Virus record (IMG/VR): IMGVR_UViG_3300037882_001356
Location: 1 to 59,691 of that record
Strand: one strand, 5' to 3'
DNA: 59,691 bases
Origin: a virus
A program made the translations under genes and the position numbers. Positions within the stretch are counted from its first letter, which is position 1; each line of letters starts with the position of its first letter. Positions 3,760 through 59,535 of the stretch are shown one piece after another. Under the pieces are notes generated by a model. It ran no database searches. It had not been told where the DNA came from and worked only from the letters and a program-made list of their open reading frames with translations.

Positions 3760-6174
3760 ATGACGATGGAATACACGGAGTTTATTGAGTCGAAGACTCA
3801 ACTAGGAGGGATGACGGGATTCAATCCGCATTGGATTCCCGACTTCCTGTTTGACTTTCAGAAGTATTTGGTTGACTGGTCGATCCGTAAAGGGTGTTGT
3901 GCTACGCTTGCTGATTGCGGACTCGGAAAAGGATTACGCCCAGATTGCCCAGTTCTTACTCCTAAAGGGTTCGTTCCTTTAGGTTCATTATCAGTTGGCG
4001 ACAACGTGATTGGGTCTGATGGTAAAGAAACAAAAATTACTGGCGTTTTCCCACGCGGTATTCAACCTCTTTATCAAGTGACATTTTCTGACCAATCTTC
4101 TGTTGTGTGCGACTCTGACCATTTGTGGAATGTTAAATCGCAGAATGACAAATCGCGTGGCAAAGATTGGCGTACTTTAAGCACCGAAGAGTTGTCAAAA
4201 TCAAACTTACGTTATGGACATGACGGCAAGAGTCGAACATGGCACATACCTATGGTTGATCCTGTTCGTTATCCAAAACAACAACTTCCAATTGACCCAT
4301 ATTTTCTTGGTGTCCTCTTGGGAGACGGAAGTATTTGTAATAACTCCGTCTCTTGGTGCAAAAACGACGCAGAAATATCTGAGCGTATTTGTCAAGTAAT
4401 ACCGGATGAATTAGAGCTAGTACGTGTTGACTCTGAAGAACGAGCAACCGTCTGGAAGGTTGTTGGAGTAAAAGGAAAGCCAAATAAAGTAATGGGATAT
4501 TTGCGAGACTTGGGTCTTAGCGAATCTCGGTCTTGGGAAAAATTTGTACCAGAACAATATCTTATTTCAGACGTAGATGACCGCATTGCTTTATTGCAAG
4601 GTCTTATGGACACGGACGGATACGCTGGTGAATCACCAGAATTTACCAGTTCATCAGAAAAACTTGCGTTAGCAGTTCGTTGTATCGTCGAATCTCTTGG
4701 TGGAACAGCTTCGATTTCTATCAAAGAACATCCAACATACACATACAAAGAAGAACTTCGGACAGGAAGGCCATGTTATCGCGTAGTAATGACATTGCCG
4801 CAATTTGTTAATCCTTTTCACCTGAAGAGAAAGGCAGACAAATATAGAACGGCATCACGTGGTCTTGGTCGTTGGATTGATTCAATCGAGCGATGCGGAG
4901 AAGGTGAAACTATTTGTATTAAGGTTGAAGCAGAAAACGGGTTGTTCGTTATTGATCGACATATTGTTACCCACAATACGATTCTGCAATTAGTGTGGGC
5001 AGAGAACATTGTCCGCGAGACGAACAAGCCTGTCCTGATTCTCACTCCTCTCGCCGTTGCTTCACAAACGGCACGGGAGGCGGAAAAGTTTGGCATCGAG
5101 TGCCAAGTATCTCGCGACGGCAAAGCCACGTCGAAGATCGTAGTGACCAACTACGAACGGTTGCACTACTTTAACCCGTCCGATTACGTCGGGGCCGTGT
5201 GCGACGAGTCCAGTGCGATTAAGCACATGGACGCCAAGCGTACTCGTGGTATCACCGAGTTTATGCGATTGCTGCCGTATCGGTTCCTGTGTACTGCAAC
5301 ACCTGCCCCCAACGATTACGTCGAACTTGGTACGTCTGCCGAAGCGTTGGGCGAGATGGGGTTTCAGGACATGGTAACGAAGTTCTTCAAGAAGAACACT
5401 AAAGGCGGACAACATGGGTGGGCACGGTTGAAGTACGAACTCAAGGGACACGCCCACAAAGACTTTTGGCGGTGGGTCTGTTCGTGGGCGAGAGCAGTAC
5501 GCAAGCCATCGGACCTAGGTTTCGAGGATGGAAAATTTGAGTTGCCGGAACTCATCACCCATGAGCATGTGGTCGAAGCTAAAACGAAGCGTCCGGGGTT
5601 CCTGTTCGACATGCCCGCGATTACGCTCGAAGAACAACGGGAAGAACGGCGGCGGTCGATGCCAGAACGCTGCGAACAAGTGGCGGAACTGGTCAAAGAC
5701 AAAGAAATCTCGCTCGTGTGGTGTCACCTGAACAACGAAGGAGACTTACTCGAAAAGATCATCCCAGACGCGGTCCAAGTGTCTGGATCGGATAGCGACG
5801 AGAAGAAAGAGGAATTGTTCCTTGCATTCTCGTTAGGTCAAATCAAACGACTGGTAACGAAGCCAGTTCTTGCAGGATGGGGCTTGAACTTCCAAGTGTG
5901 CAACCATGAAACGTTCTTCCCGTCCCATAGTTTTGAGCAATACTATCAAGGTGTGCGACGGTGCTGGCGATTCGGTCAGACGAAACCTGTCACCGTTGAT
6001 ATTGTTACGTCGGAAGGTGAACGCGGTGTATTGGAAAACTTGCAACGCAAAGCCGATGCCGCCGATGTGCTGTTTAGCAAGCTGGTCGAACTGATGAACG
6101 ACCACTTGAAGATTGCCCGCTCTAATCCATTTACCAAACAGTCGACGCTTCCGTCGTGGCTGGTAAACAACTAA
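3760..6174 (+). CDS. SNF2-type DEAD-box helicase/ATPase interrupted by an intein
   Basis: Without the 349-residue insert, the host protein is about 455 residues. The Walker A loop ADCGLGKT is split between K and T by the intein. The DEAD-type Walker B is VCDESSAIK, motif III is CTATPAPN, and the C-terminal RecA-like domain has ETFFPSHSFEQYYQGVRRCW followed by RFGQ (motif VI). Phage SNF2-like helicases of this form act in replication or recombination. ATG at 3760 is preferred over GTG 3757 because AGGA at 3751-3754 has a five-base spacer to it; ATG 3766 is also possible. Its own promoter lies at 3709. Splicing is needed to rebuild the ATP-binding loop. Confidence 0.9.
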   Translation: MTMEYTEFIESKTQLGGMTGFNPHWIPDFLFDFQKYLVDWSIRKGCCATLADCGLGKGLRPDCPVLTPKGFVPLGSLSVGDNVIGSDGKETKITGVFPRGIQPLYQVTFSDQSSVVCDSDHLWNVKSQNDKSRGKDWRTLSTEELSKSNLRYGHDGKSRTWHIPMVDPVRYPKQQLPIDPYFLGVLLGDGSICNNSVSWCKNDAEISERICQVIPDELELVRVDSEERATVWKVVGVKGKPNKVMGYLRDLGLSESRSWEKFVPEQYLISDVDDRIALLQGLMDTDGYAGESPEFTSSSEKLALAVRCIVESLGGTASISIKEHPTYTYKEELRTGRPCYRVVMTLPQFVNPFHLKRKADKYRTASRGLGRWIDSIERCGEGETICIKVEAENGLFVIDRHIVTHNTILQLVWAENIVRETNKPVLILTPLAVASQTAREAEKFGIECQVSRDGKATSKIVVTNYERLHYFNPSDYVGAVCDESSAIKHMDAKRTRGITEFMRLLPYRFLCTATPAPNDYVELGTSAEALGEMGFQDMVTKFFKKNTKGGQHGWARLKYELKGHAHKDFWRWVCSWARAVRKPSDLGFEDGKFELPELITHEHVVEAKTKRPGFLFDMPAITLEEQREERRRSMPERCEQVAELVKDKEISLVWCHLNNEGDLLEKIIPDAVQVSGSDSDEKKEELFLAFSLGQIKRLVTKPVLAGWGLNFQVCNHETFFPSHSFEQYYQGVRRCWRFGQTKPVTVDIVTSEGERGVLENLQRKADAADVLFSKLVELMNDHLKIARSNPFTKQSTLPSWLVNN
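3931..4977 (+). mobile_element. Class 3 (WCT) intein with LAGLIDADG endonuclease, 349 aa
   Basis: The insert starts with Gly where most inteins have Cys or Ser, then LRPDCPVLTPKG matches block A. Block B ends in CDSDHLWNV with Trp66. Block F has Cys329 (ETICIKV), and the end is IVTHN with Thr347, followed by Thr as the +1 extein residue. The Trp, Cys and Thr positions are those defining class 3 inteins, where the block F Cys starts splicing instead of residue 1. Two LAGLIDADG motifs (FLGVLLGDG at 125-133, LLQGLMDTDG at 221-230) mark a homing endonuclease. The DNA here is visibly more AT-rich than the flanking helicase, a sign of separate origin. Confidence 0.9.
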
Positions 6175-7692: not shown

Positions 7693-7888
7693 AGTTGATG
7701 GGGGTCAGTTCATCGAAGGAGGTGGACGCCACCAACGCGGCAAGGGATACGAAGCCGATATTGAGAAGTTAAACGAGGCGATGTTGTTGGAGTGGTCCGT
7801 TCTTAGGGTCACTCCCGCACACGTCAAAGATGGTCGAGCGTTACAGTGGATTGAGCGAATGTTGAAACAAAATGAACGAACGTTATGA
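7451..7888 (+). CDS. PD-(D/E)XK-like endonuclease (VSR/DUF559-like fold)
   Basis: The core reads FRFHPSRKWELDIAWPELMI followed by AVEVDGGQF: an Asp on one strand and E-x-D-G on the next, as in DUF559/VSR-like nucleases. RHQRGKGYEADIEKLNEAML and WSVLRVTPAHV complete the usual helix and last strand. Such small enzymes in phages act as repair or recombination nucleases or junction resolvases. The position behind annealing, helicase and methyltransferase genes supports a DNA-processing role. The start lies inside the HTH frame and has no strong ribosome site. It overlaps the next gene by 17 bases. Confidence 0.8.
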   Translation: MAARLSISEAIAAGIEIPPLNEPAKLLKKRAKLTGAFDCADTLGQVLNMVKIYGWVRDFRFHPSRKWELDIAWPELMIAVEVDGGQFIEGGGRHQRGKGYEADIEKLNEAMLLEWSVLRVTPAHVKDGRALQWIERMLKQNERTL

Positions 7889-8507
7889 CCTATACGCTGT
7901 GGTTGTAGACAACCCCTTTGACGATGCCCCGCGTCTTATTTTCGCTGATTACTTGGAAGAGCGTGATCAGGAAGAGTTTGCTCACTTCATTCGCACGACG
8001 ATAAAAATTCACTCGAAAAACTTATCCCCAGATGACCGCTATACTCTTGGCGGTCAAGTGATCCTGAATCGTTCGTCTTGGTTCCCTGATGCCCACAACG
8101 CAGGGCAGATTATTTTCAACCATAAAGAGCCGCCTTATATAACTCGAACATGGCCGTTATTCAACGTGCTTCGCGGATTCCCTACCGAGTGCAACCTAAC
8201 CCTGCATCAATTTGTTACTCAAAGAAAAGACATTGTTGCAACAAACCCCATTTGCAAATGGACAATATCTGATCGCCTTCCTCAATGGAGAGAGTCAAAC
8301 AATTGGGATCAAGAATATTCCGATGGCTATGAATTTGAATTTGGCTCAGACAAGGAAATACCAGAACGACCATATCTTCCTTGGAAGTGGCTTGAGTACG
8401 CGGAGAGCTACGGCCTGAATTTAGAGCAACGCTTTGACGATAGTAGACAAGCTAATTTGAAGCTAGAAAAATTTCTTTGGTTGTACGCAAGAGATGGTAC
8501 AAAATAA
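7872..8507 (+). CDS. TIGR02996-type domain protein, 211 aa
   Basis: The N-terminus (VVVDNPFDDAPRLIFADYLE) is the short repeat-companion domain typical of Gemmata-group planctomycetes. The rest includes PLFNVLRGFPTECNLTLHQF and TNPICKWTISDRLPQW, a layout seen in these proteins where a leucine-rich-like tail follows. The biochemical role of the family is unknown. It is the last gene of the left rightward operon, and its TAA sits in the A-tract of a hairpin. Other copies or remnants are at 39153, 40544, 45351, 45632, 48240, 55400 and 59347. Confidence 0.8.
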   Translation: MNERYDLYAVVVDNPFDDAPRLIFADYLEERDQEEFAHFIRTTIKIHSKNLSPDDRYTLGGQVILNRSSWFPDAHNAGQIIFNHKEPPYITRTWPLFNVLRGFPTECNLTLHQFVTQRKDIVATNPICKWTISDRLPQWRESNNWDQEYSDGYEFEFGSDKEIPERPYLPWKWLEYAESYGLNLEQRFDDSRQANLKLEKFLWLYARDGTK

Positions 8508-39152: not shown

Positions 39153-39662
39153 TCATTCTCCCTTGTTAAGTGTGCCTTGTTTGGCCATGCGGATCAGAGT
39201 TGACGAGAGATTTTCGTAGGCGTCTTGTTTGGACACCGAGCAGCGGAACCCATTAACCCAAACGCCAGTCAAAGATTCGTAGACATCTCGCGGTACGTTG
39301 TAAGATTCCTGTTGCAATCCTTGTGATCTGAAGTTCCACCCGAATTCATTTAAGGGACTAACAGCGATTGGTGACTTCCCCACAATCCGCACCTCCTCAA
39401 TCGGGAAGTTCTGCACCAGATTCGACCCAAACTTCCGCCACACGGCAAACGACGTGTGTATAGCGGAAACGAACCCCCGCGACACACAGATGTAAATTCT
39501 GTCTAAATCTGCAATGGAAGTCGGCCCAGTGCCATCACGATAAAAAATATGTGCTGAATACCCGATTACTTCGCGAAGTTCATCGTAACAAATTCCCGTT
39601 GTCGAATGGTTCATCCCATTTGCAACGTCAACACATGCCAACGAGCGAATCCTCTTTCTCAA
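39153..39662 (-). CDS. C-terminal half of a split TIGR02996-type gene, 169 aa
   Basis: The frame opens with TTG at 39662, overlapping the stop of the gene at 39659 (TTGA), with AAGGA nine bases upstream. ISRGFVSAI-type and FGSNLVQNFPIEEVRIVGKS segments match the second part of TIGR02996-type proteins, as in 7872-8507. The two frames together would make one usual-length protein of about 230 residues, so the gene was probably split by a frameshift and may still be translated by coupling. Confidence 0.6.
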   Translation of the reverse strand: MRKRIRSLACVDVANGMNHSTTGICYDELREVIGYSAHIFYRDGTGPTSIADLDRIYICVSRGFVSAIHTSFAVWRKFGSNLVQNFPIEEVRIVGKSPIAVSPLNEFGWNFRSQGLQQESYNVPRDVYESLTGVWVNGFRCSVSKQDAYENLSSTLIRMAKQGTLNKGE

Positions 39663-39856
39663 GACATCCGTTCCTTGTCGTTTCTTTTTCGTTCTTCCAG
39701 CTCAATCCCCAACCGAATCAACTCTGCCCGTGCGTCGTTTTCCTCTGTACCCCGTTCTTCCAGCCAATCCGCGTAGATCAACCGTGGGGCATCGTCTGCC
39801 GGGTTCGCAATGATGGCTTGCACGAAGGCGTGGCGGTCGCTGGTCAACGTTACCAT
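39659..39856 (-). CDS. TIGR02996-type domain protein, N-terminal half, 65 aa
   Basis: SDRHAFVQAIIANPADDAPR followed by LIYADWLEERGTEENDARAE is the complete family domain. The frame then stops early, in a charged helix (RLGIELEERKRNDKERM). AAGGAGAGCAA precedes the ATG and a consensus promoter lies 36 bases upstream. See the following frame at 39153 for the missing half. Confidence 0.75.
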   Translation of the reverse strand: MVTLTSDRHAFVQAIIANPADDAPRLIYADWLEERGTEENDARAELIRLGIELEERKRNDKERMS

Positions 39857-45070: not shown

Positions 45071-45354
45071 CCCACATTGAAACCACGATGGCCGACTGGC
45101 TAGCCAACGGTCCCCGGTACGTGTCGGAGGGGGTCACGTCAGTACGGATCATTAACAAAGAGCCTGCCACGAGTGTTAAAGGTGAACGGTATTGGTGTCC
45201 AGATACCGCCGGAATCCCAGAGTCGTACTACGATATCCCGCGATTGATCGCCCCGAAAATCAGCTTTCACGCCACCCGCGAAGATGCCAACGCCTTCCTC
45301 AGTGAGTCGTGTATCATCTGGGCACGGCAACAACTCAAGGAGAAAGCGTCATGA
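45067..45354 (+). CDS. Hypothetical protein, 95 aa
   Basis: Four-base overlaps with both neighbours. An alpha/beta chain with MADWLANGPRYVSEGVTSVR, GERYWCPDTAGIPESYYDIP and HATREDANAFLSESCIIWAR. No known domain. Confidence 0.62.
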   Translation: MTHIETTMADWLANGPRYVSEGVTSVRIINKEPATSVKGERYWCPDTAGIPESYYDIPRLIAPKISFHATREDANAFLSESCIIWARQQLKEKAS

Positions 45355-45635
45355 GTATCCTAGACGGGGCTCGACTGTTCCAACGCATGCTCGATACGCC
45401 CGACGACAACGCGGCACGGCTGATACTGGCCGATTGGTTGCAAGAGAATGGCCGCGAAGGACTGGCGGAGCAGTTCCGGCTTGCCGATCCGCAACGGGTT
45501 CATGAGATGAGGATTGCACGGTTGAGTTCTGCAACGTCTATTTACGCTGGATGGCTATCTGGTCCTAGTACCAGCATAGGTAATAACAACCCATTGACAC
45601 GTGCCATCAAAATACTTGACGAGGAACTTTCATGA
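45351..45635 (+). CDS. Short TIGR02996-type protein, 94 aa
   Basis: FQRMLDTPDDNAARLILADW followed by LQENGREGLAEQFRL is a variant of the family domain at the N-terminus. The C-terminal half is unrelated to the long members. ATG at 45351 overlaps the previous stop and follows AAGGAG. Confidence 0.7.
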   Translation: MSILDGARLFQRMLDTPDDNAARLILADWLQENGREGLAEQFRLADPQRVHEMRIARLSSATSIYAGWLSGPSTSIGNNNPLTRAIKILDEELS

Positions 45636-46831: not shown

Positions 46832-46849
46832 CACGCTTCCCGTCGCCAA

Positions 46850-47460
46850 GTAGACTAGGGGAATGAAAATGCCGCACTCAATTGCTAGTTGATGCGGCGT
46901 GGCTGTTTGGAGTTTGCGGAACACAGCGAAATCATCTTAGCATTTCGTTTGTCCCAAATCAACTACGAACTACCGAAAAGTGTACTAGCCGAGCGTTTGT
47001 GATCCGTGCAGGGGTCAACGGTTATCTTTCGAGCAGGTTTCTCCGTAAAAAGAAGCTCGTAAAAGATCGTCGCACGGTTATAAGCTCCCGTGCGGTTCGT
47101 AAGGTTAGGAACCTTAACAGTCCTGAGGGTGATAATCGCGTCCGGTGTGGGGTCATGTCCACGCTGGTTGTCCGGGCAACGGAGTGGTAGTCGATCCACA
47201 ATAGCACCTACGTCCCGGTCCAACTTCTCGGTGAGATACTACCGAGCCGCATGAACGAAAACGCGAGCCGAATCATCCGCTGACGAACCTGCAAAGACTC
47301 ATTCAGTACCAATACCTACCTGCACTGAACTAGACCAAGAGGGTCTGTATAAGGTTCATGCGGAAAAGTAGGGAAGGTGCTGTATTGCCTTAGACTACCA
47401 GTAACCTGACTTGCTTGTTCGGGGTCAATCCGTACCCACCATTGCCGGGAATGTTTTTGT
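46850..47460 (+). ncRNA. Large structured non-coding RNA candidate
   Basis: The 653 bases between the sigma gene (46831) and the next start (47485) have no convincing gene. Strong pairings include a 10-bp perfect long-range helix CCGCATGAAC (47247-47256) with GTTCATGCGG (47354-47363), enclosing hairpins TTCAGT/ACTGAA (47302/47324) and AGACC/GGTCT (47332/47342). Further hairpins are GCCGCA/TGCGGC (46871-46898), CGCACGG/CCGTGCG (47071-47094), TAAGGTT/AACCTTA (47100-47116), GTCCGG/CCGGGC (47140/47172) and CTCGGT/ACCGAG (47227-47246). Size and context resemble the large ornate RNAs of phages (GOLLD, ROOL), but no sequence match was established. Ends are approximate; a U-rich stretch lies at 47454-47466. 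Confidence 0.7.
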
Positions 47461-47484
47461 TGTTTTAACCAAAGGAGAGTTCAG

Positions 47485-47778
47485 ATGGGAGTTTCGATGA
47501 AAGTAACGATCAGCAGCTTCAAGGATGATGATTCAACTTACCAATGCCAAGGAACAAACGACATCGGAATCAAAGTGAATTTCCACATTGAAAAGGGGGC
47601 TGGCTTTGCAAGCTTACGATTTATTCAGTTCTCCAAAGATGGATGGGGCAATATGGATGATCGTTTCTGTGAAATACTTAATGTGGGCGATCTGAAATCA
47701 CTACGGTCATTTTGCGAACATGCAATATCTCGGATCGAATCCGATATCGCCGAACAGATTGGGGAGAGTCATGACTGA
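47485..47778 (+). CDS. Hypothetical protein, 97 aa
   Basis: AAAGGAGAGTTCAG precedes the ATG. A beta N-terminal half (VTISSFKDDDSTYQCQGTND, IGIKVNFHIEKGAGFASLRF) and helical C-terminus (LKSLRSFCEHAISRIESDIA). It is the first gene behind the structured RNA region and heads a three-gene coupled operon. No family. Confidence 0.68.
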   Translation: MGVSMKVTISSFKDDDSTYQCQGTNDIGIKVNFHIEKGAGFASLRFIQFSKDGWGNMDDRFCEILNVGDLKSLRSFCEHAISRIESDIAEQIGESHD

Positions 47779-48037: not shown

Positions 48038-48243
48038 ATGAATTTGCAATCATACTATCAAATTTACGTGACGAAAACGACATGATGAACGCTCTTCGTC
48101 GCACGCTGACAATTGAGCAATACATTGCCATCCTCAGAGACAAGACCGCCATGCAGCTTATCTCAAACTTGATGGTAAATGATTTGGACAATGGCCTGCG
48201 TAACGTTGCCAATGACCGAGTGACTGAGCTGTTGGATGGCTAG
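48034..48243 (+). CDS. Hypothetical helical protein, 69 aa
   Basis: All-helical chain (FAIILSNLRDENDMMNALRR, TLTIEQYIAILRDKTAMQLI). It overlaps the previous gene by 4 bases and the convergent TIGR02996-type gene by 4. Function unknown. Confidence 0.62.
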   Translation: MNEFAIILSNLRDENDMMNALRRTLTIEQYIAILRDKTAMQLISNLMVNDLDNGLRNVANDRVTELLDG

Positions 48244-49004
48244 GATTTGGCCCATGCGAGTAGGGCACGGGAGAGGTCTTCAATAGCGTACTCTGATAAT
48301 TCATAGCCACGCCAAGATGATTGCGTTCCATCCTTGAGATGGCAAAACACTTCGCTCGGAATGTTTGGTGATTCGATTGACGACGTGACACGATGCCGCC
48401 ACCACGCAAACCGATTCTCTTTTTCGCACAAGAGACGCTGGAACGGTTTTTTATCCGTTGCCATCACTTTCGTCACCGGATGCTCCCGCACAATGTCCTT
48501 GCCGTGGTCGAGCCATTGTTGTAGGGTGCAGTGAATTTCATCGACGAATCCACGCCGAACAATGCCAACGATACCATCAGGGCGTTGCTTGTTCCACACC
48601 CAATTTCCGTCTTGAGTCGCAGCGAATTCATCTTTGCAGTGAGATGATTTCAGCCACGACAAGGCGTCGAGATAACCGTCTTCATTTTTGTTAGCCGATT
48701 CCATCCACGTATCATCGCCAAACCATCTTGGATGTTTGATTTGACAGCGGATCAACGCGGCCCGCTCCGCAAAGCCGTTGGAGACTCGGCCAGTGCCGTG
48801 GCAATTACCGCATGGGATAATATCCGTTTTGAATCCGTACACGCTTTCTATCTTTCCGCCGAGGCCATCGCAAATAAAGCAACACGATTCCACCACATTC
48901 TCATCCAACCAATCGGCGAAAATCAGTCGCGGGGCATCATCTTCCGGGTTGGCGATGATCGCGTTGAGCAACGCCAGTTGGGTGATGTCGGTGATCGTGT
49001 TCAT
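48240..49004 (-). CDS. TIGR02996-type protein with DnaJ-like zinc insert, 254 aa
   Basis: The family domain (ALLNAIIANPEDDAPRLIFA, DWLDEN) is followed by CCFICDGLGG and CGNCHGTGR (about 42-73), CxxCxGxG pairs like those of DnaJ zinc fingers. Then comes the usual family tail with IVGIVRRGFVDEIHCTLQQW, LDHGKDIVREHPVTKVMATD and WWRHRV. It is the longest intact member in the window. Role unknown; the zinc insert suggests binding to protein or RNA. Confidence 0.78.
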   Translation of the reverse strand: MNTITDITQLALLNAIIANPEDDAPRLIFADWLDENVVESCCFICDGLGGKIESVYGFKTDIIPCGNCHGTGRVSNGFAERAALIRCQIKHPRWFGDDTWMESANKNEDGYLDALSWLKSSHCKDEFAATQDGNWVWNKQRPDGIVGIVRRGFVDEIHCTLQQWLDHGKDIVREHPVTKVMATDKKPFQRLLCEKENRFAWWRHRVTSSIESPNIPSEVFCHLKDGTQSSWRGYELSEYAIEDLSRALLAWAKS

Positions 49005-49878: not shown

Positions 49879-50105
49879 CCCATCACCTCCACTGGCATCC
49901 CAAACGGGTCCAGTCCACCCACCACAACCGGCTGCGTCGTGTGGATTTGCTGGTAGCCGTCCTCATGGTGAATATACATCGTTTCCCACGGTCGGGAGTA
50001 GTCGGTAATCGACTTTCGCATGATGGTAACGGCGTGGGAGACAAGCTCCACGGCCCATCCCCGGCTCTGTGCGGCGATGATGGCGTCAAGTGCGGCGGTG
50101 TGCAT
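49875..50105 (-). CDS. Hypothetical protein, 76 aa
   Basis: Begins MHTAALDAIIAAQSRGWAVE and continues VSHAVTIMRKSITDYSRPWE to YIHHEDGYQQIHTTQPVVVG. The start overlaps the previous stop (TAATG). Alpha/beta, no domain recognised. Confidence 0.62.
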   Translation of the reverse strand: MHTAALDAIIAAQSRGWAVELVSHAVTIMRKSITDYSRPWETMYIHHEDGYQQIHTTQPVVVGGLDPFGMPVEVMG

Positions 50106-50284
50106 TACTTATCCCCTTTGACTGATTCAACGATTTTCATGGCGTTCCGCAATCCGCGAAGGATGCCAATTTCGTAAGCATCGGACGACTTTGAGTCTCG
50201 TTCTTCGGCTATCGCAATCTCTAAACGGGCGATGATCCGCGAGACAATGACGAGCTGTTCTGGGGTCAAACTTTGATCGTGCAT
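50105..50284 (-). CDS. Hypothetical helical protein, 59 aa
   Basis: ACAAAGGAACCTCCG precedes ATG at 50284. All-helical (LTPEQLVIVSRIIARLEIAI, AYEIGILRGLRNAMKIVESV). The YEIGILRGLRNAMKIVE stretch resembles YDLGYVRGLKRSINMID in the protein at 51784, so the two may be distant relatives. Confidence 0.6.
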   Translation of the reverse strand: MHDQSLTPEQLVIVSRIIARLEIAIAEERDSKSSDAYEIGILRGLRNAMKIVESVKGDK

Positions 50285-51017: not shown

Positions 51018-51602
51018 TCACATCCGACCACCCACCGCCTCCCTCGCATCGGCTTCCGCTTTCTTGTGGGCCTGATACACTTTCCACAATTCCTCGAGCC
51101 ACGGCTTATCCTTGCCCCATCGATCCGGGTAGGTACGTTCGAGTTTCCATGCAGCGGCTTGCCATTGGGACGGCAACACGTCCTCGGTAACGGTGGTTGT
51201 GGTGTTTCCCTCTCTATCTACCTTGGTCACTTCGATACGCCGTGTAACACTTCCCCCCATCGCTGCTAGGCGTACCTTATCGACATACCACGACTCACTT
51301 ACGGCTTCCGCCTTTTTAACTTTGTGCATAAAGGGAATGTACAATTCATCACCTTCTCTTCCAAGTCTGATCCAACGTCGCAGAGTATCGTAGCTAATCC
51401 CGGAGGAAAGAGCCGAGACACGGCGTGAGTTCCCGGCTTCGAGTAGCTCAATAATCTTGTCCGCGACTTCGGTAGTGATCTTGGGAATTGGTCCCTTGCG
51501 GGTCTTCTTTGGTTCGTAGGGGAGTGGATCGGCGTCGTTAGTCTTATCTTCCCCCATTGACCCCCATAGCGTCTGGATCGGCTCATCGTCGTGTGCGGCC
51601 AT
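51018..51602 (-). CDS. Probable terminase small subunit, 194 aa
   Basis: ATG at 51602 follows GGAA. A helix-turn-helix (about 55-85: KITTEVADKIIELLEAGNSR, RVSALSSGISYDTLRRWIRL) is followed by a helical region (FMHKVKKAEAVSESWYVDKV, RLAAMGG) and DVLPSQWQAAAWKLERTYPD with RWGKDK. The HTH plus WxAAAWxLERxYPxxWG end is a frequent layout of small terminase subunits that recognise packaging sites. It is about 9 kb from the large subunit, in the accessory arm, which is unusual. Confidence 0.75.
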   Translation of the reverse strand: MAAHDDEPIQTLWGSMGEDKTNDADPLPYEPKKTRKGPIPKITTEVADKIIELLEAGNSRRVSALSSGISYDTLRRWIRLGREGDELYIPFMHKVKKAEAVSESWYVDKVRLAAMGGSVTRRIEVTKVDREGNTTTTVTEDVLPSQWQAAAWKLERTYPDRWGKDKPWLEELWKVYQAHKKAEADAREAVGGRM

Positions 51603-51715
51603 GTGTGCGTTCCGTAACGTGGTTATTGTGCTGATGATCGGGCTATCGTCGTCAGTGGAGATTGTACACGATTTCGGGGCAGGGGAATTATTTTGAATTA
51701 TTTTCCGATTGACGA

Positions 51716-51743
51716 TTGACACCAACGACCAATCAGGTAAGAT
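51716..51743 (+). promoter_or_regulatory. Rightward promoter with conserved upstream element
   Basis: TTGACA (51716-51721), 16-bp spacer ending in GG, TAAGAT (51738-51743). The 35 bases ending with the -35 box (51687-51721) match 52378-52412 at 30 positions. Confidence 0.85.
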
Positions 51744-51783
51744 GATTTGGACGAGACGAAAACAACCAAACAGGGGAATCAAA

Positions 51784-51954
51784 ATGAGCCAAGAACAACT
51801 CGACATTTACGCGAACATTTTAGCCGCGTTGGAATTAGAAGTGATGAGTGAAGAAAAGAAAAAGTCTTACGAACCATACGATCTTGGTTATGTTCGCGGT
51901 TTGAAACGTTCAATCAATATGATCGACAAGATCATGGAAGATAACGATAAATAG
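51784..51954 (+). CDS. Hypothetical helical protein, 56 aa
   Basis: CAGGGGAATCAAA precedes the ATG. Helical: QLDIYANILAALELEVMSEE, YDLGYVRGLKRSINMIDKIM. It stops 7 bases before a tRNA-like acceptor/T-arm element. See also 50105-50284. Confidence 0.65.
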   Translation: MSQEQLDIYANILAALELEVMSEEKKKSYEPYDLGYVRGLKRSINMIDKIMEDNDK

Positions 51955-51961
51955 CCCTCAC

Positions 51962-51999
51962 TCCGCTCACGGCTCGCCGGTTCAACTCCGGCCAGCGGA
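51962..51999 (+). ncRNA. tRNA-like acceptor/T-arm element 1
   Basis: TCCGCT (51962-51967) pairs with AGCGGA (51994-51999). Inside, a perfect 5-bp stem GCCGG/CCGGC holds the 7-base loop TTCAACT, a T-loop pattern. D- and anticodon arms are absent; only eight bases separate the outer and inner stems. It starts 7 bases after a stop codon. Possible processing signal. Confidence 0.6.
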
Positions 52000-52033
52000 T
52001 TCCGCCCGAACCAACCAAAAAGGAAGACTTGAG

Positions 52034-52330
52034 ATGCCGAAGAACAAAACAGAGTCCGGGTCATTCGTCGCCATATTGACCGACGGGACGCACATCACAG
52101 GTTCCGGCGAATGTTCGGACAATGACTCATTCGGCAATCACGTGCGATGCGCGTTAGACGGACGGCAGTACGACATCGTGACGTTCTTTTACGCTTACGG
52201 GCCGTCCGAAGCTCAAATGTACTCGCGGGATGAGGTGTTGGAAGTGTTTTACGGTGAGGACATGAATTTCGTCGGCAAAGTAAGAGCTGCCGCGTTCCAA
52301 GCAAAAAAATTACTGCGTGGCCACAAGTAA
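52034..52330 (+). CDS. Hypothetical protein, 98 aa
   Basis: AAAAAGGAAGACTTGAG precedes the ATG. Beta N-terminal half (SFVAILTDGTHITGSGECSD), then FFYAYGPSEAQMYSRDEVLE and a basic helical end. It lies between two tRNA-like elements and reads from the 51.72 kb promoter. Confidence 0.65.
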   Translation: MPKNKTESGSFVAILTDGTHITGSGECSDNDSFGNHVRCALDGRQYDIVTFFYAYGPSEAQMYSRDEVLEVFYGEDMNFVGKVRAAAFQAKKLLRGHK

Positions 52331-52337
52331 CTGCCTC

Positions 52338-52379
52338 ATCCGTGCATGGTTCGTGGGGTTCGATTCCCCACACACGGAT
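52338..52379 (+). ncRNA. tRNA-like acceptor/T-arm element 2
   Basis: ATCCGTG (52338-52344) pairs perfectly with CACGGAT (52373-52379). TGGGG/CCCCA encloses TTCGATT, an exact T-loop. It aligns with element 1 (CTCA-TCCG-T-CA-GG-TCG-GGTTC-A-TCC) while stem bases differ in a compensated way. It starts 7 bases after a stop codon and touches the next promoter's upstream repeat. Confidence 0.65.
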
Positions 52380-52406
52380 TATTTTGAAATAAATTCCGAT
52401 TGACCG

Positions 52407-52434
52407 TTGACACCTACACATTCCGTGGTAAGAT
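52407..52434 (+). promoter_or_regulatory. Rightward promoter with conserved upstream element (copy 2)
   Basis: TTGACA (52407-52412), 16-bp spacer ending in GG, TAAGAT (52429-52434). It is the twin of the 51.72 kb promoter. Confidence 0.85.
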
Positions 52435-52485
52435 ACCTACATGATCGCTGACACAACGCCAGCGACAAACAAAGGATGAAGAATC

Positions 52486-52833
52486 ATGACCGCAACGAAA
52501 ACACTTGCAGAAATTTTTAAGGTCAACGGCCAAACGGATGACATGGAGCCGTGGACTGCAGCCGATGATTGCGAAATCATCGAAATCAACGGTGAAGACA
52601 TCCTTGCACTCGCCGAAGATGGCGTTGCGATCTGGGATAACAGCGAGCGGGAATGGAGGGAGGTGCCAGCATCAGACGCGGCAAAGATCGCTATGTTGGT
52701 TTTTGGATCGGGGTTCCGAGCCAATTCCGAAAAGAAGCGAAGCCAAGTCGAAACACTGCTCGACCACATGAGCAAGACGCACCCATACGCCGACGTCCCG
52801 ACTCATATCTCGGTGCTGTCGGAAGTCGAATAA
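52486..52833 (+). CDS. Hypothetical acidic protein, 115 aa
   Basis: ACAAAGGATGAAGAATC precedes the ATG. Sequence: KTLAEIFKVNGQTDDMEPWT, CEIIEINGEDILALAEDGVA, IWDNSEREWREVPASDAAKI. The C-terminal half is helical. The single gene behind the 52.41 kb promoter, directly followed by tRNA-like element 3. Confidence 0.66.
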   Translation: MTATKTLAEIFKVNGQTDDMEPWTAADDCEIIEINGEDILALAEDGVAIWDNSEREWREVPASDAAKIAMLVFGSGFRANSEKKRSQVETLLDHMSKTHPYADVPTHISVLSEVE

Positions 52834-52875
52834 TCAGCATCGGGGGTAGGAGGGGTTCCACTCCCCTCCGGCTGA
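52834..52875 (+). ncRNA. tRNA-like acceptor/T-arm element 3
   Basis: It begins right after a TAA stop. TCAGC(AT)CGG pairs with CCGGCTGA (52868-52875) with a 2-base bulge, and AGGGG/CCCCT encloses TTCCACT (52856-52862). More diverged than elements 1 and 2, but the layout and position after a stop are the same. Confidence 0.5.
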
Positions 52876-52930: not shown

Positions 52931-53056
52931 ATGAACACCACCCCCGCGACCCTCGCCCCGTCGCGGCCCTGCAACAAAATTGTCACCGCTCCGATAGGGG
53001 CGGTGTATTACATGAGCCACCGAATTGGAGCAAGACATGACCGAATCCTATTATGA
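52931..53056 (+). CDS. Possible 41-residue peptide over a hairpin repeat
   Basis: An ATG frame (NTTPATLAPSRPCNKIVTAP, IGAVYYMSH) spans the hairpin at 52984-53005 and overlaps the start of the 53037 gene. The peptide part TAPIGA is echoed by TAPRGA in the frame at 53477. No clear ribosome site, so this could be a non-coding leader instead. Confidence 0.3.
   Translation: MNTTPATLAPSRPCNKIVTAPIGAVYYMSHRIGARHDRILL
52984..53005 (+). repeat. Hairpin repeat CACCGCTCC-loop-GGGGCGGTG, copy 1
   Basis: Nine paired positions (one G-T) around GATA. A second copy at 53497-53516 differs in one loop base over 20 bases. The two copies bracket the gene at 53037. Confidence 0.75.
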
Positions 53057-53477
53057 CGTCGGGGATGGAACACGCTGTGCTGTCCGCGAATGGGAATCAT
53101 GTAGCGTGTATGGCCACTGCTACGAGATCGACTTCCTCGTAGACGACTGCATTTATTGTCTTCGGCTTTCGCCGCGCTGCCACGCGGAGCATTATGCGTA
53201 TTTCCACGATATACTCAATCGTGGCCAGCGTGCCCCATGCGGATTCTTGCAGGGCATGAAGGACCTGCTCATTGAGACGCTCGACGAGCCGACTAACGAT
53301 CATCCCGGCGCAACGGATTTCACGCCTCGGATGACCAAAAACTGTCTGCCGGGCAAAATCTGGCACAGCAGGAATGCAATTGTGACGACACCGTGCTGCG
53401 GTCACTCAATCGTCTTGCCGCGTGGCTCGGTGTACGTGTGTTGCGAGCGGACACGTATCGCAGAGGATGGTCACTAA
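53037..53477 (+). CDS. Cys/His-rich hypothetical protein, 146 aa
   Basis: ATG at 53037 has GGAGC seven bases upstream; the frame is open back to a TTG at 53025. Contains CSVYGHCYEIDFLVDDCIYC, HAEHYAYFHDILNRGQRAPC and near the end TTPCCGHSIVL with VYVCCERT, a likely zinc ribbon. Flanked by the hairpin repeats. Function unknown. Confidence 0.65.
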   Translation: MTESYYDVGDGTRCAVREWESCSVYGHCYEIDFLVDDCIYCLRLSPRCHAEHYAYFHDILNRGQRAPCGFLQGMKDLLIETLDEPTNDHPGATDFTPRMTKNCLPGKIWHSRNAIVTTPCCGHSIVLPRGSVYVCCERTRIAEDGH

Positions 53478-53554
53478 TGAGCCGCTGCCACCCTGACACC
53501 GCTCCGAGAGGGGCGGCGGGCGTCGTTATTCACGACGCCATCGCAATCGAATAG
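53477..53554 (+). CDS. Possible 25-residue peptide over hairpin repeat copy 2
   Basis: ATG overlaps the previous stop (TAATG). The peptide MSRCHPDTAPRGAAGVVIHD runs over the second hairpin copy and ends at a TAG within the left arm of the 20-bp inverted repeat at 53550. Coupled overlap is the main support. Confidence 0.35.
   Translation: MSRCHPDTAPRGAAGVVIHDAIAIE
53497..53516 (+). repeat. Hairpin repeat, copy 2
   Basis: CCGCTCC (53499-53505), loop GAGA, GGGGCGG (53510-53516). Same 20-base unit as 52984-53003 with a single loop change (T to G). Confidence 0.75.
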
Positions 53555-53632
53555 GAACGCATTACAGACGCTTTTAATATAAGACGTGGAATTGATCGAC
53601 TAATATTATCGTGTCTGTAATGCGTTCCTATT
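53550..53632. repeat. Perfect 20-bp inverted repeat with 43-bp centre
   Basis: AATAGGAACGCATTACAGAC at 53550-53569 is the exact complement of 53613-53632. The AT-rich centre contains a further TAATAT/ATATTA pair. It lies in the gene-free gap between rightward and leftward genes, at a point of convergence. Candidates are a bidirectional terminator-like structure, a replication or recombination site, or a small MITE-like insertion. Confidence 0.85.
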
Positions 53633-53696
53633 GCGTCCTAGTAATGAGTGTACGTATTAACAATCCCATAGGTCGTTCTTGTGACCGTTAGAATGA

Positions 53697-59347: not shown

Positions 59348-59535
59348 TGCTGCCTTATCCAACACCGACGTATGCAGTTCAACTCGCGGCGGCAGATTGG
59401 TGCTATGAAAATGGCATGGATCAATTCGCGGATCGCCTACGCGAAGTAAGACCAATGTCAACGTCATGCTTGGTTTTATATTTTTCGGGGTCGTGGTCGT
59501 GGTCGCGGTCGGGGTCGTGGTCGTGGTCGACATGA
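59347..59535 (+). CDS. TIGR02996-related peptide ending in Ser-dipeptide repeat, 62 aa
   Basis: The start overlaps the previous stop (TAATG). VQLAAADWCYENGMDQFADR matches the second half of the TIGR02996-type domain. The end (SGSWSWSRSGSWSWS) comes from seven NGGTCG hexamers. It looks like a fusion of a domain remnant with a microsatellite. Confidence 0.6.
   Translation: MLPYPTPTYAVQLAAADWCYENGMDQFADRLREVRPMSTSCLVLYFSGSWSWSRSGSWSWST
59488..59529 (+). repeat. Seven tandem NGGTCG hexamers
   Basis: Seven copies in a row (N is G, T or C), same unit as at 197-232. Length variation here would change the peptide by two residues per unit and keep the frame. Confidence 0.9.

Follow-up and report, generated by a model that had tools for sequence, protein, structure and literature searches.

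Short tRNA-like elements at gene ends in a Gemmata-type phage record and in other viruses of bacteria and archaea: putative viral t-elements

The stretch of DNA analysed here (the window) is the 59.7-kb IMG/VR virus record IMGVR_UViG_3300037882_001356, the proteins of which match terminase, portal and major head protein. The motif PxDDAPRLIYADWLEE of Gemmata-type planctomycetes is encoded at 7872-8507, 39659-39856, 45353-45635 and 48240-49004 of the window and was also found in three further phages (G001, G002 and G003). Since the relatives sharing this motif are mainly Gemmataceae or Planctomycetes genomes, a Gemmata-like host is likely for the window phage. No close relatives were found among viral contigs via gene B, TerL and MCP, nor by phage DNA and protein BLAST.

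In the locus under study, small genes are followed by three short tRNA-like elements, E1, E2 and E3 (Table 1). A σ70-like promoter, gene A, E1, gene B and E2 form a unit divergent from the small-terminase gene, and the promoter repeat recurs, as a second copy, ahead of gene C, E3 and gene D. The terminator scan detected no terminator-like site between E2 and this second copy. The protein encoded by gene A and that encoded at 50105-50284 on the minus strand are apparent paralogues, with a related promoter repeat near each gene.

Table 1. Genes, promoter repeats and tRNA-like elements of the locus (positions in the window; CM, covariance model built from E1-E4)
Feature	Position	Strand	Basis and remarks
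Small-terminase gene	51018-51806	-	
σ70-like promoter TTGACA-16-TAAGAT	51716..51743	+	upstream of gene A; repeated at 52407, reversed at 50658
Gene A (small, 56 aa)	51784..51954	+	ORF and coding score; stop 7 nt before E1; no Pfam/PHROG family
E1, mini-tRNA element	51962..51999	+	sequence and fold; CM 46.3 bits (itself in training set)
E1 acceptor	51962-51967/51994-51999	+	
E1 linker	51968-51975	+	CACGGCTC
E1 T arm (loop)	51976-51992 (51981-51987)	+	unpaired C 51993
Gene B (small, 98 aa)	52034..52330	+	ORF; stop 7 nt before E2; no Pfam/PHROG family
E2, mini-tRNA element	52338..52379	+	sequence and fold; CM 55.8 bits (itself in training set)
E2 acceptor	52338-52344/52373-52379	+	
E2 linker	52345-52352	+	CATGGTTC
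E2 T arm (loop)	52353-52371 (52359-52365)	+	unpaired A 52372
Promoter repeat, second copy	52407..52434	+	start 28 nt after E2
Gene C (small, 115 aa)	52486..52833	+	ORF and coding score; stop immediately before E3; no confident Pfam/PHROG family
E3, mini-tRNA element	52834..52875	+	sequence; CM 48.7 bits (itself in training set)
E3 acceptor	52834-52838/52871-52875	+	
E3 linker	52839-52848	+	ATCGGGGGTA
E3 T arm (loop)	52849-52869 (52856-52862)	+	unpaired G 52870
Gene D	53037..53477	+	next gene 3' of E3; ORF; no confident Pfam/PHROG family

Several other features of the window were recorded. About 650 nt at 46832-47486, which separate a sigma-factor-like gene from the gene that follows it, carry no called gene, look structured and gave no Rfam match at the gathering or E-value threshold; a large noncoding RNA or an intron-like element is possible there. 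An inverted repeat at 53551-53633, whose arms measure about 22 nt (AATAGGAACGCATTACAGACG ... CGTGTCTGTAATGCGTTCCTATT) and flank an AT-rich centre, lies between converging genes and is a candidate bidirectional terminator or replication/recombination site. Two pairs of direct repeats of 42-44 nt (11848-11891/12072-12115 and 54275-54316/54525-54566) at the starts of neighbouring minus-strand genes are candidate repeated leader or promoter regions. Repeats of the TCGGGG type occur near both ends of the record (200-233 and 59485-59530).

The earlier note on this DNA had described three acceptor/T-arm minihelices that closely follow small-gene stop codons, and both parts of this description were confirmed. 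E1 consists of a 6-bp acceptor (TCCGCT/AGCGGA), the T stem GCCGG/CCGGC and the loop TTCAACT; E2 of a 7-bp acceptor (ATCCGTG/CACGGAT), the T stem GTGGGG/CCCCAC and the loop TTCGATT; and E3 of a 5-bp acceptor (TCAGC/GCTGA), the T stem GGAGGGG/CCCCTCC and the loop TTCCACT, with C at the R57 position. All three lie on the coding strand, and 7, 7 and 0 nt, respectively, separate them from the preceding stop codon. Minimum free energy (MFE) folding of E1 and E2 gave exactly the acceptor and T-arm structure (z -1.8 and -2.2), whereas a different fold was slightly favoured for E3 alone (z -1.0). E3 is the weakest of the three copies. When the 101-nt contexts of the elements were folded in the same way, competing folds were present.

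The number of elements in the window is far above that expected by chance. When a TTCNANT loop, a T stem of at least 5 bp, an acceptor of at least 5 bp and a linker of 5-12 nt were required, the scan returned three matches on the plus strand and one, inside a gene, on the minus strand, whereas 200 first-order Markov sequences of window length contained a mean of 0.175 matches on both strands together (maximum 2). D and anticodon arms are missing from E1-E3, and no tRNA was detected there by ARAGORN. This agrees with the description of the elements as an acceptor plus T arm lacking these arms, except that the linker retains a D-loop-like YGG. No Rfam family reached its cut-off at the window copies; sub-cut-off matches to Plastid-ycf2 and Clostridiales-2 were taken as chance.

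Three further virus contigs (G001, G002 and G003) were reached through the ADWLEE motif. G001, which is the nearest relative by terminase (TerL 44% identity), contains no element. A fourth element, E4, was found in the second Gemmata phage, G003 (CCGCG.AGTGGTTCC.GGCGGG-TTCGACT-CCCGCC.C.CGCGG). It starts on the base after a TAG codon (0 nt), between genes for proteins of 69 aa and 288 aa (phrog_12094), and is divergent from a terminase-like gene. With the covariance model, 95 Gemmata-family genomes were searched (68 candidates scored per genome) and at least one match was obtained, on a contig of a Gemmata MAG that looks phage-like. In a comparison with the G003-type terminase locus, neither the 22 Gemmata terminase loci nor the 30 MCP loci contained the element. 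Since it is missing from G001 and from the 22 Gemmata terminase loci, the element is not conserved by descent at the terminase locus.

A DNA pattern made of the linker and T loop led to contigs of Mu-like phages, assigned through a DNA transposition protein family. Each of them carries one or two copies, which follow stop codons at a distance of 0 or 7 nt. The contigs L120, L137 and L176 belong to HF1/HF2-group haloviruses. Among the matches listed, about ten further contigs showed the same architecture. A T-loop variant with normal spacing matched four contigs and gave one clear new element (L288), and none of five contigs yielded mini elements with a pattern in which the CCG is shifted one base further (TTCGATTCC loops). 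Matches that were coding or had no T stem (L101, L114, L125, L126, L129 and others) or lay inside or among tRNA genes (L103, L104 and L112) were rejected. Downstream of a gp16-like gene, L111 (4986-5163) has a mini element and, about 70 nt further on, a full tRNA-Pro. The locus L281 (G110:54000-72000), on a virus contig of 67% GC, carries a graded series of mini-tRNAs with linkers of 7-15 nt, some of them with CCA, which are possibly intermediates between tRNAs and t-elements. The copies can be clustered: three occur in 0.9 kb of the window, and G110 has at least five within about 7 kb. A search of the open-licence PMC literature returned no description of phage mini-tRNA or T-arm elements.

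The members of this group are 38-44 nt long, correspond to a tRNA top half with acceptor and T arm, are mostly intergenic and often lie behind stop codons. The T stem of 5-7 bp closes a loop TTC-R-A-Y-T (TTCRAYT). A single unpaired base joins the T stem to the 3' strand of the acceptor in all of E1-E4 and, among the matches listed, in 17 of the 19 acceptor-bearing copies, some of these assignments being a choice between equivalent pairings. The ruler formed by T stem, unpaired base and acceptor has a mode of 12 and a range of 10-14 (12 in E1 and E4, 13 in E3 and 14 in E2); that of a tRNA is 5 + 7. The elements thus have the T-arm/acceptor stack, about 12 bp counted from the loop, that characterizes a minimal RNase P substrate. 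The linker of 8-11 nt contains YGG, usually from its third base. YGG formed part of the DNA search pattern, and it is also present in copies that were identified from their structure alone (E1-E4, HF2 site 2, L168, L178 and L105a); GG occupies linker positions 4-5 in five of the eight copies found without the pattern. In tRNA, G18 and G19 of the D loop contact T-loop positions 55 and 56, and the linker YGG may represent a D loop reduced to its minimum, which would dock on the T loop to form an elbow. CCA directly follows the acceptor in the tRNA register in L117, L173 and L178/G110; a 3' RCCA is favoured by bacterial RNase P. It is absent from E1-E4, as it is from 44 of 52 Gemmata tRNA listings (some of them duplicates).

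Pattern and covariance-model searches favour look-alikes, and the pairing was examined with an acceptor-blind pattern, RYGGYTC N3-5 GGTTCGACTCC, which requires neither an acceptor nor a stop codon. Among the matches listed, an acceptor strand adjoins the linker in 19 of 43 independent ARAGORN-negative cases, compared with 1.7 (maximum 6) for shuffled flanks; among the real tRNAs listed as a control, the adjacent strand was seen in 4 of 35 (1.8 in shuffles). In 9 of 18 representative copies (E4 included), an ORF of at least 40 codons ends within 10 nt upstream; random positions in the same contigs give 1.4. When 29 distinct sequences were aligned to the model, 94.6% of the cells paired (59.6% after shuffling) and the covariation score was 0.647, compared with 0.127 for shuffled and at most 0.149 for slid pairings. 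These sequences showed 97 double-sided changes, and two-sided changes occurred at all six acceptor pairs. Because the covariance model itself selects for pairing, the acceptor-blind test and the orthologues in the HF group, described below, constitute the cleaner evidence. By number, covariation and placement, the element is a real and recurrent RNA element.

Ten HF-group viruses, examined individually, share two intergenic sites with one element at each (2906-2944 and 4375-4414 in HF2), about 30 nt after the stop codon; they are unannotated in the HF2 record. The acceptor covaries between the orthologues (GCCCCG/CGGGGC, GCTCCG/CGGAGC and GCTCTG/CAGAGC). The earlier note had named a lack of homologues with compensatory changes in related phages as grounds for refuting its proposal, and this check did not refute it: elements of the same architecture with compensatory changes occur in a further Gemmata phage, in Mu-like phages, in haloviruses of the HF2 group and in additional contigs, often close behind stop codons. 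In HF2, very long transcripts were detected by RT-PCR and mostly bands of 1-2.5 kb by Northern blotting, and processing was suggested by the authors (PMC8707807). A primer-extension 5' end at T-4384 was interpreted in the same study as a promoter start (PMC8707807). This end lies inside the element 4375-4414, 9 nt past the RNase P site predicted at its 5' foot, and counts against a reading as cleavage; it may mark a promoter that overlaps the element, or else a processed or RT-stop end.

The closest known counterpart is the t-element of Haloferax volcanii, a tRNA-like structure upstream of 5S rRNA which is described as being cut by both RNase P and tRNase Z (Holzle 2008, 2012, in PMC4326828), and Haloferax t-elements have been employed to release guide RNA (PMC4326828). 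Compared by description, the two share a tRNA-like fold with an acceptor-like helix stacked on a T arm, and both sit in longer precursors. The Haloferax t-element is, however, cellular and located at the 5' end of rRNA, whereas the elements reported here are viral and lie mostly between protein genes, often behind stop codons. They also differ from its description in their occurrence in bacterial and archaeal viruses, their common YGG linker and their one unpaired base. The elements would be a broad viral variant of a Haloferax-type t-element, likened to it by description. In mitochondria, RNase P and RNase Z cut out intergenic tRNAs and thereby separate the mRNAs; those are real tRNAs, whereas the elements here have about 40 nt and no anticodon. 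To our knowledge, the non-tRNA phage RNAs cut by RNase P are single cases that form no recurrent family behind stop codons, and they are set apart from our elements by this description. They include phi80 M3 RNA, the C4 antisense RNA of P1/P7 and T4 gene 32 mRNA (PMC11143913). The tRNA-like structures of MALAT1 and MEN-beta are likewise RNase P substrates within long transcripts, but they belong to eukaryotic long noncoding RNAs (PMC4919913). Prokaryotic tRNA gene fragments (PMC9897764) have the T arm and the 3' acceptor strand in common with the elements, although an adjacent compensating 5' acceptor strand is not expected in them.

We propose, with a probability of about 0.6, that E1-E3 are viral t-elements, i.e. 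sites at which host RNase P and RNase Z would punctuate polycistronic transcripts. The proposal draws on the following background: RNase P, starting at the elbow, gauges the stack of T arm and acceptor and also cuts RNAs other than tRNAs that present such a stack (PMC4919913), it acts on bacterial polycistronic mRNAs (PMC11143913), and both the Haloferax t-element and the phage RNAs mentioned above are cleaved. From the anatomy we infer that the element would act as a compact tRNA top half, with the linker YGG mimicking G18G19 in the elbow, and that host tRNA maturation enzymes would recognize it within the polycistronic transcript. The 5' foot of the acceptor, 0-7 nt past the stop codon, would be the cutting site of RNase P, which would release the upstream mRNA; cleavage by RNase Z at the 3' foot would release the downstream mRNA, the tRNAs of Gemmata being mostly without encoded CCA. 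Gene expression would be affected in that the operon would be punctuated at gene ends, as it is by tRNAs in mitochondria. Since a terminating ribosome would cover the acceptor at zero spacing, cutting could there wait for passing translation. The 12-bp ruler, the elbow residues and the CCA encoded in some copies fit the idea of processing, and the number, recurrence, covariation and placement of the elements, the negative terminator scan at E1-E3 and the short HF2 bands favour it. The competing folds in the longer context, the 5' end at T-4384 of HF2, the absence of the element from G001 and the 22 Gemmata terminase loci, and the bias of the searches towards look-alikes speak against it.

The main rival is a stabilizer of 3' ends, in which the element would be kept on the upstream mRNA and, after trimming by exonucleases or RNase Z and capping with CCA, would form a decay-resistant tRNA-like head. 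The position directly behind stop codons and the CCA encoded in some copies would suit this role, and so would E2, which ends a transcription unit with the next promoter 28 nt on and no terminator; the CCA-adding enzyme also measures the T-arm/acceptor stack (PMC4919913). A good RNase P substrate would, however, be severed from the upstream mRNA, and copies between tightly packed genes need no 3' cap, so that we consider this role unlikely, if clearly ahead of the alternatives that follow. A decoy or regulator is improbable: the T-arm mimic would titrate or recruit RNase P, TruB/TrmA-type or CCA enzymes or affect translation of the next gene. The elbow determinants are kept, and at 0-nt spacing a terminating ribosome would, judging from the anatomy, melt the acceptor, but one to three copies on an mRNA seem too few to titrate abundant enzymes.

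The remaining alternatives concern the origin of the elements or a role at the DNA level. Decaying tRNA genes or fragments without present function are suggested by the tRNA-like T arm and YGG, by the full tRNA-Pro about 70 nt downstream of the L111 element and by the graded series of G110 with its longer linkers. The stems covary, however, the 5' acceptor strand stands at a fixed distance, and the placement at stop codons and the compensatory changes in the conserved HF-group orthologues also speak against mere decay, to which we give little credence. The suggestion of the earlier note that the elements are remnants of tRNA genes may thus describe their origin, but as a full explanation it fails because the stems are maintained by covariation. 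We regard attachment sites, i.e. attP-like 3' pieces of tRNA genes used by tRNA-targeting integrases, as very improbable. A separate tRNA-like gene of HF2 is indeed an attP (PMC8707807), but a 3' tRNA piece would bring no complementary 5' acceptor strand within 8-10 nt, and the three copies of the window differ from one another. Moreover, the longest exact matches of E1-E4 to 30 tRNA loci of two candidate Gemmata host genomes were 10-14 nt rather than a long tRNA 3' end, and no integrase was found among the window proteins tested. Intrinsic terminators can be given just as little weight: hairpins are located at gene ends, but the GC hairpin is not accompanied by a T-run and the terminator scan was negative at E1-E3. 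Integron attC sites were dropped because the core site is missing.

The occurrence of the same element in unrelated viruses of bacteria and archaea suggests that viruses may widely use host tRNA-cutting enzymes between genes. We rate the chances as even that the elements constitute a distinct RNA family across these viruses, a top half of 38-44 nt with a YGG elbow at which host RNase P and RNase Z would cut viral transcripts. If so, viruses of two domains of life would share a portable mRNA-cutting signal that exploits essential host enzymes, which are not easily lost or mutated. The short transcripts arising from long primary ones, as seen in HF2, would be explained. Such a family would also supply a rule by which overlooked RNA elements of viruses could be annotated, and a natural set of minimal substrates for the study of recognition by RNase P and RNase Z.
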